From positions 1 through 7,177 of the forward strand of contig JAADIO010000057.1 of the NCBI GenBank assembly GCA_013151235.1: 7,177 nucleotides of DNA. Reading direction: 5' to 3'. Position numbers and translations under genes: made by a program. A model generated the notes under the pieces. The model made no database searches, was not told the DNA's origin, and saw only the letters and a list, made by a program, of their open reading frames with translations. Source of the stretch: Deltaproteobacteria bacterium. GTDB taxonomy: Bacteria; CG2-30-53-67. Positions 3,004-6,009 of the stretch are shown in pieces (the stretch's first letter is position 1; the number at the start of each line of letters is the position of its first letter).

Positions 3004-4377
3004 ATGGACAATGTGACGGTCTTTCAATCCACTTTTATTCTGATTGCCTTGCTCCTCTTCGTGATTCTTCTGGCGATCTATGCCCTGCAGAAGGTCCGGA
3101 GAGGATTTCTCCGCCTCACCGAATCGGAGGAGATCCTGGAAAAGGGAAAGATTCCCGGTGCCAACAAAGAGATGTCATTTGTCTTCGGGGCCTTTCAACA
3201 GACGTTGCAGGAGATTACCCAGAAAAAACAAGAACTGATCCGGATGCATCAGGATGCCGTGGAACGGGTGCGCCGTATGGAACGGTACAACGAGTGTATC
3301 CTGGAGAGTATGGTGAGCGGAGTTGCGGCATTCGATCGTCAGGGCAAACTCACATCATTGAACGGAGCCGCGGCACGGATCTTCGGCCGGGAGTTGGGGG
3401 GCGGTGCCATCGGCCAATCCTATGACGAGGTTCTCGCTGGATCGGAGGCGATGAAGGAGATCCTGCAGCGGGTCCTGCAGGAGAATCGCCGAATCCTCCG
3501 GGAAGAAGTTCTGCTGACCTTGCCCGGCGGCGAGCGCAAATGGCTGGGGGTGAATGTTTCTCCTCTGAAAGGAGCGGAAGGAGAGATGATCGGTGCGACC
3601 CTCCTCTTCACCGACCTGACGGAAGTAAAGGAACTCCAGCGTCAGGTGGAATTGAAGAATCGGCTGGCCGCCATGGGGGAGATGTCGGCCGGGATTGCCC
3701 ACGAGTTCCGGAATTCGCTGGGGGCGATTCTCGGCTATGCCCGCCTGGCGGACCGGCAGGCCGGGGAAAACTCCGTTCTCAGGGAAGCAGCGGAAGGGAT
3801 TATCACCGAGGTGAAGAGCTTCGATGCCATGCTCTCCGACTTCCTTCATTTCGCTCGTCCAATGGAATTGAACAGGGAAGCATGCCGGCTTGATGAACTG
3901 ATCCGTGAAGCTCTGGAGGTCCTGTCCGATGAGATTGAAACGAAAAAGGCCGAGACGAAGGTGGAATGTAACGAAGTCCCTTCGCTCATGCTTGATCGGA
4001 CGCTGATCCGGCAGTCGATGACGAACTTAATCAAGAATGCTCTTCAGGCGATCCCGGAAGGAGGGAGCATTGCGATCGAGGTGCAAGAGAGGACCGACAG
4101 AGTGGAGGTCCGGATCCGGGACAACGGGCCGGGGATTCCGCGGGATCTACAGAAAAAGATCTTTGAACCTTTCTTTACCACCAAACGGGAAGGCACCGGC
4201 CTGGGACTGGCGATTACGCAGAAGACCATTGTTGCCCACCAGGGAAACATACGGATCAAAAGCGATCCGGGGCAGGGGACGTTGATGATCGTTTCCCTCC
4301 CTTCGCAGGGAAACGCAGGCACAAAGGGGCAGAGGCACAAAGAAACAGGGGCAAAGGAGAAAGCCGGAAGAACATAG
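3004..4377 (+). CDS. PAS-domain sensor histidine kinase (NtrB/AtoS-like)
   Basis: A 457-residue two-component sensor that autophosphorylates on His and should pass the phosphate to the NtrC-type regulator just downstream. One transmembrane helix lies at about residues 9-28, with no periplasmic loop of any size. A charged helical linker follows, then a PAS domain at about 95-210, a DHp domain with phosphoacceptor H233 (GIAHEFRNSLGAI), and a HATPase domain. The HATPase has N-box N341/N345 (NLIKNALQA), G1 box D373 (DNGPGIP), the FEPFFTTK box and G2 box GTGLGL at 397-402. The signal is probably sensed inside the cell or membrane by PAS. The conserved kinase ends near LP433. The last 24 residues, rich in K, G, R, T and A, are encoded by an inverted-repeat arm and look like read-in from an inserted element. 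The start at 3004 has only a weak upstream purine signal (GGA, seven bases away). Adjacency to pilD recalls PilS but does not prove it. Confidence 0.93.
   Translation: MDNVTVFQSTFILIALLLFVILLAIYALQKVRRGFLRLTESEEILEKGKIPGANKEMSFVFGAFQQTLQEITQKKQELIRMHQDAVERVRRMERYNECILESMVSGVAAFDRQGKLTSLNGAAARIFGRELGGGAIGQSYDEVLAGSEAMKEILQRVLQENRRILREEVLLTLPGGERKWLGVNVSPLKGAEGEMIGATLLFTDLTEVKELQRQVELKNRLAAMGEMSAGIAHEFRNSLGAILGYARLADRQAGENSVLREAAEGIITEVKSFDAMLSDFLHFARPMELNREACRLDELIREALEVLSDEIETKKAETKVECNEVPSLMLDRTLIRQSMTNLIKNALQAIPEGGSIAIEVQERTDRVEVRIRDNGPGIPRDLQKKIFEPFFTTKREGTGLGLAITQKTIVAHQGNIRIKSDPGQGTLMIVSLPSQGNAGTKGQRHKETGAKEKAGRT
4291..4314 (+). repeat. Perfect 8-bp hairpin at the end of the kinase gene
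   Basis: GTTTCCCT (4291-4298) and AGGGAAAC (4307-4314) form a perfect inverted repeat with an eight-base loop. It falls on the last conserved codons of the kinase, just before the purine-rich repeat arm. It may mark the left boundary of the inserted element or a fold in the mRNA. It is not followed by a T tract, so it is not an intrinsic terminator. Confidence 0.5.
4323..4342 (+). repeat. Left inverted-repeat arm
   Basis: The sequence AAAGGGGCAGAGGCACAAAG matches the reverse complement of 4591-4610 at 19 of 20 positions. Inside and just before it, AGGCACAAAG occurs twice as a direct repeat (4317-4326 and 4333-4342). The arm is translated as part of the kinase tail. A second related block, CAGGGGCAAAGG, follows at 4346-4357. 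Confidence 0.8.
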
Positions 4378-4400
4378 GTATAGAGGGGCAAAGAAAATCG

Positions 4401-4625
4401 ATGAAAACCTATCGTGATTTAATGGTTTGGCAGAAATCCATGCTCCTTGTAACGGCCGTTTACCGAGAAACAAAATCATTTCCCCCGGATGAACGCTACG
4501 GTTTGACATCACCGTTGCGCAGAAGTGCCGTATCCGTTCCCGCGAACATGGCGGAAGGTTACGGCAGGAACTCTACATTGGACTTTGTGCCTTTGTGCCT
4601 CTGTCCCTTTGACCCTTGTTTTTAA
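4401..4625 (+). pseudogene. Truncated four-helix-bundle protein (23S rRNA IVS protein family)
   Basis: The first 62 or so residues match the family closely: MKTYRDLMVWQKSMLLV, FPPDERYGLTSPLRRSAVS, then VPANMAEGYGRNSTLDF. Full-length members have about 115-130 residues and continue into two more helices (usually EF/DF followed by a FLxIA-type helix). Here the homology stops at the right repeat arm, which is read as VPLCLCPFDPCF before a TAA. Only the first half of the fold remains, so it is called a remnant. The start at 4401 is the canonical family start, with a purine-rich stretch (GAGGGGCAAAG) upstream. The ORF may still be translated: its stop lies one base before the regulator ATG, so it could act as a leader cistron. 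The function of full-length members is unsettled. They form homo-oligomers and resemble the Avd accessory protein of diversity-generating retroelements, but no reverse transcriptase or template repeat is seen here. Confidence 0.85.
4591..4610 (-). repeat. Right inverted-repeat arm
   Basis: CTTTGTGCCTCTGTCCCTTT is the reverse complement of the left arm with one mismatch (A for G at the seventh base on the complementary strand). It is preceded by a direct duplication of CTTTGTGC (4583-4590 and 4591-4598). The arm interrupts the four-helix-bundle reading frame and supplies its premature end. Confidence 0.8.
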
Positions 4626-4626
4626 C

Positions 4627-6009
4627 ATGGACAACATTCTCCTTGTAGAAGACAAAAAGAGCATGCGGCGCATGCTGACGCAGACCCTCCAGGCGGAAGG
4701 TTACCAGGTCTTCGAGGCCCGGGACGGGGTCGAGGCGCTGGAGCTTTATCGGAAGAACTGGATCGATTTGATCCTGACCGACCTTCAGATGCCGGAGATG
4801 GACGGGTTGGAGTTGCTTCGGAATCTCAAGGAAGAAGGTTCTCTCGTCGATGTTATCATCATGACTGCTTACGGCACGATTGAAAAGGCCGTGGAAGCGA
4901 TGAAGATCGGTGCCCTTGATTTTATCACCAAGCCCTTTGACACTGATTATCTCCTGATCCTTGTCGGTCGGGCCTTGAAAAACCGCCGGATGGTCCGGGA
5001 GAATATGCTCCTCAGGGAGACCTTCTCCAAAGAATACGGAATGCCGGAGATTATCGGCCGGAGTCCGGCGATTCAGAATGTAGCGGAAAAAATCCGGAAG
5101 GTTGCCGCAACGGAGAGTTCGGTTCTTCTTCAGGGAGAGAGCGGGACCGGGAAGGAACTCTTTGCCCGGGCCGTCCATCAACTGAGTGATCGGAAGGATT
5201 CGAATTTTGTGGCCATCAATTGTGCCGCCATCCCCTCGGAACTGTTGGAGAGCGAACTCTTCGGTTACGAAAAGGGGGCCTTCACCGGAGCGGACCGCCG
5301 CAAGATCGGCTACTTTGAACTCGCACACCGCGGGACACTTTTCCTCGACGAAATTGTAGAGTTGCCTCTTTCCCTTCAGAGCAAACTCCTCCGGGTGCTC
5401 CAGGAAAAATCCCTCCAGAGGCTGGGAGGAACGCAGACCATCCGGATTGATGTGCGGATTCTCTCCGCGGCGAACCTCGATATTGAAGAGTGTCTTCGGC
5501 AAAAGCGTTTTCGTGAAGATCTTTATTATAGATTGGCCGTTGTCCCGATCGTCATCCCCCCTCTCCGTGAACGGGCGGAAGATGTTCCGCTCCTGGTCGA
5601 TCATCTGCTGAAGAAGTACGAAAAGGAACTGAATAAGAAAGGACTCCGAGTGGAGGAGGATGCCGTTGCCGAGCTGTGCCGGCAGGAATGGAGGGGGAAT
5701 GTCCGGGAGCTGGAAAACTGTGTTGAACGGGGTGCGATCCTCTGTCCCGGGAACAAAATCGGCCTGGAGGACATGGGGATTATTCCTTCTCGGAAGAAAA
5801 GCGGTCCCTCGGCTTCCTTCCCGGCAGGAAGAAGCCTTCAGGAAATTTCCGCCGAGGCGGCGTCCTGTGCCGAACGTAAGGTTATCCTCGCTGCGCTGCT
5901 GGAGAACGAATGGAACAAAACACGTGTTGCCGAACAACTAAAGGTCAGTTACAAAACCCTCCTCACGAAGATCAAAGACTATGACCTTGAAAAGGAGCGA
6001 GCCGGGTAG
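4627..6009 (+). CDS. Sigma54-dependent NtrC-family response regulator
   Basis: A 460-residue two-component transcription activator. The receiver domain (about 1-120) has acidic pocket E8/D9, phosphoacceptor D52 (LILTDLQMPEMDG), T80 and K102. The AAA+ sigma54-interaction domain (about 142-370) has Walker A GESGTGKE at 170-177, the sigma54-contacting GAFTGA loop at 217-222 and Walker B GTLFLDE at 236-242. The next residues read IVELPL where most relatives have IGELPL. A Fis-type helix-turn-helix closes the protein (about 415-455, AERKVILAALLENEWNKTRVAEQL). It should be phosphorylated by the upstream kinase and open promoters with RNA polymerase-sigma54. The ATG at 4627 begins the receiver directly (MDNILLVEDKKSMRRML). 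An in-frame GTG at 4525 lies inside the inserted element and is rejected. No Shine-Dalgarno precedes 4627: the upstream DNA is pyrimidine-rich. A TAA at 4623-4625 sits one base before it, suggesting translation by reinitiation. Targets are unknown; pilin genes are a guess from adjacency. Confidence 0.95.
   Translation: MDNILLVEDKKSMRRMLTQTLQAEGYQVFEARDGVEALELYRKNWIDLILTDLQMPEMDGLELLRNLKEEGSLVDVIIMTAYGTIEKAVEAMKIGALDFITKPFDTDYLLILVGRALKNRRMVRENMLLRETFSKEYGMPEIIGRSPAIQNVAEKIRKVAATESSVLLQGESGTGKELFARAVHQLSDRKDSNFVAINCAAIPSELLESELFGYEKGAFTGADRRKIGYFELAHRGTLFLDEIVELPLSLQSKLLRVLQEKSLQRLGGTQTIRIDVRILSAANLDIEECLRQKRFREDLYYRLAVVPIVIPPLRERAEDVPLLVDHLLKKYEKELNKKGLRVEEDAVAELCRQEWRGNVRELENCVERGAILCPGNKIGLEDMGIIPSRKKSGPSASFPAGRSLQEISAEAASCAERKVILAALLENEWNKTRVAEQLKVSYKTLLTKIKDYDLEKERAG

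Follow-up and report, generated by a model that had tools for sequence, protein, structure and literature searches.

To our knowledge, the proteins of rRNA intervening sequences (IVSs) and the heptamer arrays of bacterial genomes have both been known for decades while their function and origin are unsettled. We know of no activity, transposition included, for the IVS protein (IVP). The 23S rRNA IVS of Coxiella carries tandem heptamers (GACAGAT) beside its S23 ORF and can be cleaved with RNase III in vitro, and internal deletions of the gene occur in rRNA IVSs too (PMC4990558). Heptamer arrays were described separately. Those of Xanthomonas (GGGAATC) and Nostoc include inverted pairs (PMC4692102), and for the arrays of Beggiatoaceae and cyanobacteria (TAACTGA in both groups) and of Bacteroidetes a horizontal spread was proposed, with the remark that 'no mechanism is evident' (PMC4679880, 2015). 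In both papers the arrays are short, tandem and intergenic, and some of them overlap stop codons (PMC4679880, PMC4692102).

Here we describe an IVP gene fragment enclosed by inverted arrays in a protein-coding operon. The window, i.e. the whole stretch of 7,177 nucleotides that was analysed, is the entire contig C57 of the host genome (G000), which belongs to a phylum with no more than 7 genomes in the searched collection.

A truncated IVP gene between inverted arrays

The unit lies between a sensor kinase gene and the gene of a response regulator, and the features of this region are as follows.

3004-4377, + strand: PAS/HisKA/HATPase sensor kinase ORF (Pfam), the last 18 codons (4321-4374) of which lie within the left array; the kinases of relatives end at or near the array start
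4317-4347, + strand: left arm, an array of ~8-nt units AGGCACAAAGGGGCAGAGGCACAAAGAAACA (from arm pairing and the genome pattern family), with looser units on to ~4390
4321-4323, + strand: position that aligns with the kinase stop codon of the relative G002, at residue 440 of the window kinase and 4 nt into the left array (manual alignment of SLPSQGNAG/T with SLPIHNAPV/stop)
4401-4589, + strand: 5' half of an IVP (four-helix-bundle) gene, PF05635 positions 1-59 of 106 (profile matches to PF05635 and TIGR02436)
4401-4625, + strand: 74-aa ORF in which the IVP fragment continues into the right arm, with TAA at 4623-4625, 1 nt before the regulator ATG (ORF list)
4583-4616, - strand: right arm, the array copy inverted (CTTTGTGCCTTTGTGCCTCTGTCCCTTTGACCCT), from arm pairing
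4627-6009, + strand: NtrC-type response regulator with receiver, sigma-54 activation domain and Fis-type HTH (Pfam)

The ORF at 4401-4625 matched PF05635 with E=1e-20 and 74.3 bits (curated cut-off 33.8) over profile positions 1-59 of 106 only, and TIGR02436 ('four helix bundle protein') with 66 bits (cut-off 24), which agrees with the first-pass annotation of a truncated gene of the 23S rRNA intervening-sequence protein family between the arms. The gene does not encode a complete four-helix bundle. Its match ends at profile position 59, beyond which the frame continues into the right arm, and, as read from its sequence, this copy is unable to make a whole IVP. It is the single PF05635 match in the host genome. 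The ORF had no match among the phage gene families of PHROGs, and no rRNA or other known RNA family was matched in the window by Rfam.

Recomputed pairing of the arms at 4323-4342 and 4591-4610 returned the complementarity at 19 of 20 positions and the 248-nt separation that had been noticed at first sight, and longer arms (4317-4347 and 4586-4616) are complementary at 26 of 31 positions. The local score of the arms, calculated between the 300 nt upstream and the reverse complement of the 300 nt downstream, was 21.5, compared to a mean of 10.6 (sd 1.5, maximum 19.0) in 1000 dinucleotide shuffles, none of which reached 21.5. The predicted fold of 4304-4626 has an energy of -116.9 kcal/mol (z = -5.6 against shuffles). 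Chance pairing of the arms is ruled out by the shuffle scores and the fold z-score, and the arms thus match each other beyond chance, as do the inverted short-tandem arrays of the IVP elements surveyed below. Rather than forming a unique 20-nt repeat pair, the arms consist of ~8-nt units in short tandem arrays (GGCACAAA/GGCACAGA) and belong to one family of such arrays spread through the genome. In a transcript of the unit the arms would pair as a stem of ~31 bp, a plausible substrate of RNase III.

The left array is open in the kinase frame and therefore extends the kinase ORF by 18 codons. At the other end, the sequence TAA-C-ATG is present at 4623-4629 and no clear Shine-Dalgarno sequence is seen ahead of the regulator ATG. 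Judged from this arrangement, translational coupling of the truncated IVP ORF with the regulator is possible. The stem may change the kinase and regulator mRNA or their ratio, as the predicted fold would allow, and the effect of this copy on the operon is most likely slight.

The kinase-regulator junction in relatives

The orthologous junction could be located in three relatives, namely G001 (same genus), G002 and G004. The junction of G002 is plain: the kinase ends with a TAG stop codon, and a short gap that includes the ribosome-binding sequence GAGAGGG separates it from the regulator. G004 carries a gene-less hairpin element of ~300 nt at this place, and G001 carries other solo arrays with no IVP. 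Since G002 is empty and the other two have different contents, the unit of the window is a lineage-specific insertion, and conservation of the same unit in place among relatives, the finding that would have spoken against a mobile unit, is ruled out by all three junctions. Together with the PF05635 match, this comparison upholds the earlier proposal of an IVS-type unit with a truncated, non-autonomous gene in a protein-coding operon.

The insertion sits at the stop codon of a co-directional gene. The kinase stop is lost in the window, and hand alignment to G002 places it at 4321-4323, so that the left arm starts 4 nt before this position. The ribosome-binding site GAGAGGG, present in both G002 and G004, is also lost at the junction. 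The relatives are too distant for a target duplication to be read at this site.

Arrays in the host genome and its relatives

The first-pass annotation had suggested a search for further copies of the arm, and the arm pattern was found 41 times in the host genome compared to 5 times for the reversed control; these and the other array counts in genomes rest on pattern searches. At most of 20 array sites read in G000, the array lies directly 3' of a stop codon and on the sense strand, and arrays behind stop codons are often followed by other arrays, e.g. ACCACGGGGAACACGGGG. Of 12 orthologous junctions compared in G001, 3 are plain and a different array type is present at 2. These differences show that arrays come and go between species at gene 3' ends. 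Another dispersed palindromic repeat (GTCGTAAAAAGTC...GAACGGTGTAAG...CATGAACGGAATCCG), separate from the arrays, was observed in G000 at L254, L258 and L259.

In G004, 52 matches were found to an array-bearing family with defined ends (GGWTCATCTCC...GGAGAAGAACC) and subterminal arrays, for example at L226, L227, L230, L232, L241 and L044. The family is MITE-like, has at least 40 copies, and several copies are flanked by perfect 8-bp AT-rich target duplications. Most copies are without an IVP; some hold truncated IVP genes in which the 5' part of the gene is kept. A classical transposase likely acts on this family. Its ends were sought in G000 and are absent there, the window copy included.

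Inverted arrays also bracket the genes of another small protein family, the GxxExxY (PF13366, PDDEXK_3) nucleases at L313-L342, with units of ~9 nt. The own-pair median of the arms is 22 in these loci as compared to a cross-pair median of 11 (n=24), and at L319 TCACCGCAGAGACGCAGAGGACGCAGAGG flanks the gene on both sides. One such locus is present in G000 (L326, G000:C19:66885-67232), and solo copies of these units stand behind stop codons in both G000 and G001.

Survey of IVP genes and their arms

A total of 94 IVP genes with usable flanks, taken from eighty loci of named organisms and from further relatives, were surveyed; they are spread across bacterial phyla and some archaea. Inverted pairing between the two arms of the same gene had a median of 20, compared to 10.5 for arms of different genes (p=1.5e-39), whereas 404 other genes from the same loci had a median of 12 and a 95th percentile of 17.4. 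This percentile was exceeded by 56 of the 94 IVP genes (60%), which are referred to here as clear-arm genes. Direct rather than inverted repetition of the arms was considered and rejected, its own-pair median being 12.5 as against 20.

The arms of the clear-arm genes have a period of 7 in 96 of 112 cases. Units of 8 nt, as in the window, occur in nine survey arms, and a period of 7 is therefore common in IVP elements, yet no defining trait. The upstream arm is G-rich at 50 of 55 clear-arm loci and the opposite holds at the other 5. Of 48 consensus 7-mers, 43 are distinct between elements, i.e. the matching arms are specific to each element. At most IVP loci the arms adjoin unique sequence, with no further shared ends.

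The stop of the preceding co-directional gene lies at a median of -4 nt from the arm start, a distance that is biased because arrays often hold stop codons and can end an incoming ORF; paired filled and empty sites, presented in the next section, are free of this bias. The right arm ends at a median of 14 nt before the next start. Enrichment of stop codons within the units, tried as the cause of the stop-codon placement, was only marginal (31 of 48 units, where shuffling predicts 26; p=0.05).

Intact IVPs have dN/dS values of 0.05-0.16, which indicates that they are under purifying selection. In the PDB, the IVP profile matched XCC0516 (2gsc, E=7e-33) and 2rld, and no structure of Avd was matched by it.

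Arm units can be followed into the genomes that carry them. The pattern TAGGCAGTAGGCAGTAGG gave 113, 36 and 21 matches in genomes with the IVP arm unit in question, against 0, 3 and 1 for the control, and is absent or nearly so from most genomes with other units, the exceptions being G048 and G051. A second arm-unit pattern behaved similarly and less cleanly. Three genomes, G048 (46 matches), G051 (13) and G054 (44), contain arrays whose unit differs from that read at, or expected for, their own IVP locus. In G015, nineteen partial PF05635 matches were seen, many of them as closely spaced pairs on opposite strands (e.g. L028, L040).

Filled and empty sites on plasmids

Annotated cyanobacterial plasmids offered direct comparisons of filled and empty sites, in which IVP elements stand at stop codons where genes are tightly packed. 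The best-resolved site is that of L286, which is 98% identical to the empty L307: AAAAAGTAATTAACAAATAAATATG is changed to AAAAAGTAAT[element]GTAATTAACAAATAAATATG, with GTAAT duplicated (5 bp) and the stop codon inside the duplication. At L289, as compared to L297-L300, TTCTAG-GTT-ATG has become TTCTA[element]TTCTAGTTATG and TTCTA is duplicated. The target duplication is thus ~5 bp at two Nostoc-type plasmid sites, against 8 bp in the G004 copies. The empty form of the L288 site (L294-L296) consists of a stop codon, 3 nt and ATG, and in the filled form the whole element stands in between. Insertion took place at a directly adjacent stop and start in L300 (compared to L297/L298), and behind the stop, in a gap of 11-12 nt, in L304 (compared to L309/L310). 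As L286 and L289 show, related IVP genes have taken the same arms with them into different sites.

Gene-less and truncated forms are found at these sites as well. The L287 site is empty in L293 and L303 and holds a gene-less hairpin with the unit of this site in L292. At the L286 site, L308 (NZ_CP040277.1 77417-79150) has the left array and the start of the IVP gene and no right arm, while in L311/L312 (compared to L306) the left arm persists together with the 5' portion of the gene. The decay of L308 and L311/L312 is of the same kind as that of the window copy, and such deletion remnants are recurrent. The units move by insertion as DNA at stop-codon sites, and their gene-bearing, gene-less and truncated forms share arms. 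As judged from the survey and these plasmid sites, the class is neither rare nor confined to rRNA.

Origin of the window unit

We consider it probable that the window unit is a copy, dead and non-autonomous, of a mobile element which is widespread, inserts at stop codons and has rRNA IVSs as one of its cases. The unit (4317-4616) would be the internal-deletion remnant of an element whose intact form has an IVP (PF05635) gene between inverted arrays of 7-8-nt units, the left arm having its G-rich strand on the coding side. Such an element would insert as DNA where a gene ends with its stop codon and another gene follows downstream, and would duplicate ~5 bp, judged from the best-resolved site. 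The window copy would have entered at the kinase stop codon after divergence from the near relatives; its array would have happened to be open in the kinase frame, adding 18 codons to the kinase, and the second half of the IVP gene would have been lost later while the right arm remained. We infer that the IVP, a relative of XCC0516 with a pentameric four-helix bundle, participates in the movement; it would help to copy or insert array-bounded hairpins, and the gene-less arrays elsewhere in these genomes would be its non-autonomous products or debris. Against this explanation speak the period of 8 in the window, the target duplication that is unreadable there, the IVP having no known transposition activity and no identified catalytic residues, the arrays of differing unit in G048, G051 and G054, and the G004 family, whose movement may be due to a conventional transposase; the stop-codon placement could partly result from selection against insertions inside genes.

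The part given to the IVP is where other explanations differ most. A conventional DNA transposon or MITE could move the arrays with the IVP as a passenger that has no role in mobility, as the G004 family with its 52 matches, defined ends, 8-bp duplications and mostly IVP-less copies would suggest. We find this rather unlikely, since the ends of that family are absent from G000, the arms abut unique sequence at most IVP loci without further shared ends, the IVP is under purifying selection and the Nostoc-type plasmid sites show ~5 bp and not 8. We give about the same small weight to an RNA-borne element, in which RNase III would excise the stem and a reverse transcriptase would copy the RNA back at gene 3' ends, the IVP acting like Avd of the diversity-generating retroelements. 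Excision of IVS elements by RNase III (PMC4990558), the placement of insertions at stop codons, the sense strand carrying the G-rich arm, and the strong predicted stem of the window are all consistent with this route, but no reverse transcriptase is found among the ORFs of the 7-kb window and a 5-bp target duplication is equally typical of ordinary DNA transposition.

The remaining alternatives give the host the leading part, and both seem improbable. The element might have been adopted by the operon, its stem setting the ratio of kinase to regulator mRNA and its truncated ORF coupling regulator translation. The predicted stem, the TAA-C-ATG junction and the loss of GAGAGGG would fit with such a use; however, close relatives manage without the unit and the contents of the junction vary by species, which makes it doubtful. 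Least probable of all, by a small step, are arrays made by the host as intergenic tandem repeats, through slippage or as regulatory or termination sequences, with IVP genes merely located there. Solo arrays without an IVP do outnumber IVP elements in G000, and heptamer arrays were published as simple-sequence repeats of intergenic regions for which roles in translation were proposed (PMC4679880, PMC4692102). Against host-made repeats, the arms are inverted, matched within an element and different between elements, entire element-sized insertions face empty sites at ~98% identity, and arms are shared between related IVP genes that have moved to different sites.

With regard to the class as a whole, we lean somewhat towards the view that IVP (S23) genes define an undescribed and very widespread class of stop-codon-inserting mobile elements with element-specific inverted arrays of ~7-nt units, which includes rRNA IVSs as one case and is the source of the heptamer arrays, and that the GxxExxY (PF13366) genes are a second small family with the same kind of arrays in ~9-nt units. 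Joining IVS proteins with heptamer arrays provides a testable explanation for both. An element that lands exactly at stop codons survives by breaking no gene; if true, this would account for the different repeat arrays that fill operon junctions of related bacteria, and would give annotators a rule for recognizing IVP units and their dead copies.

Comparison with known systems

The window unit has in common with the 23S rRNA IVSs of Coxiella and Leptospira a PF05635 ORF within stem-forming inverted repeats. It differs from them in its host site, which is the stop codon of a protein gene and not an rRNA helix and places the unit between a kinase and a regulator, and in its arms, which belong to a genome-wide array family with a period of 8. 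MITEs are likewise non-autonomous, hairpin-forming and multi-copy, and the G004 family is MITE-like, but the window copy is without the G004 ends and its target duplication is unreadable. In REP/REPIN sequences and their RAYTs, a small gene also has flanking repeats of which copies are scattered gene-less through the genome; compared with the general description of that system, the units of IVP elements are tandem 7-mers that differ between elements. Avd of the diversity-generating retroelements, which we take to be kin to the IVP, is of the same fold class of four-helix-bundle pentamers; in contrast to those retroelements, no reverse transcriptase or variable repeat is apparent in the 7,177-base window.

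As for the published heptamer arrays, the searched passages of PMC4679880 and PMC4692102 do not tie them to the IVP gene family. IVSs with heptamers and heptamer arrays were already known, each separately. Our literature search, outside of which lay preprints and most subscription journals, found no paper in which IVP genes are connected with inverted arrays and with insertion at stop codons.
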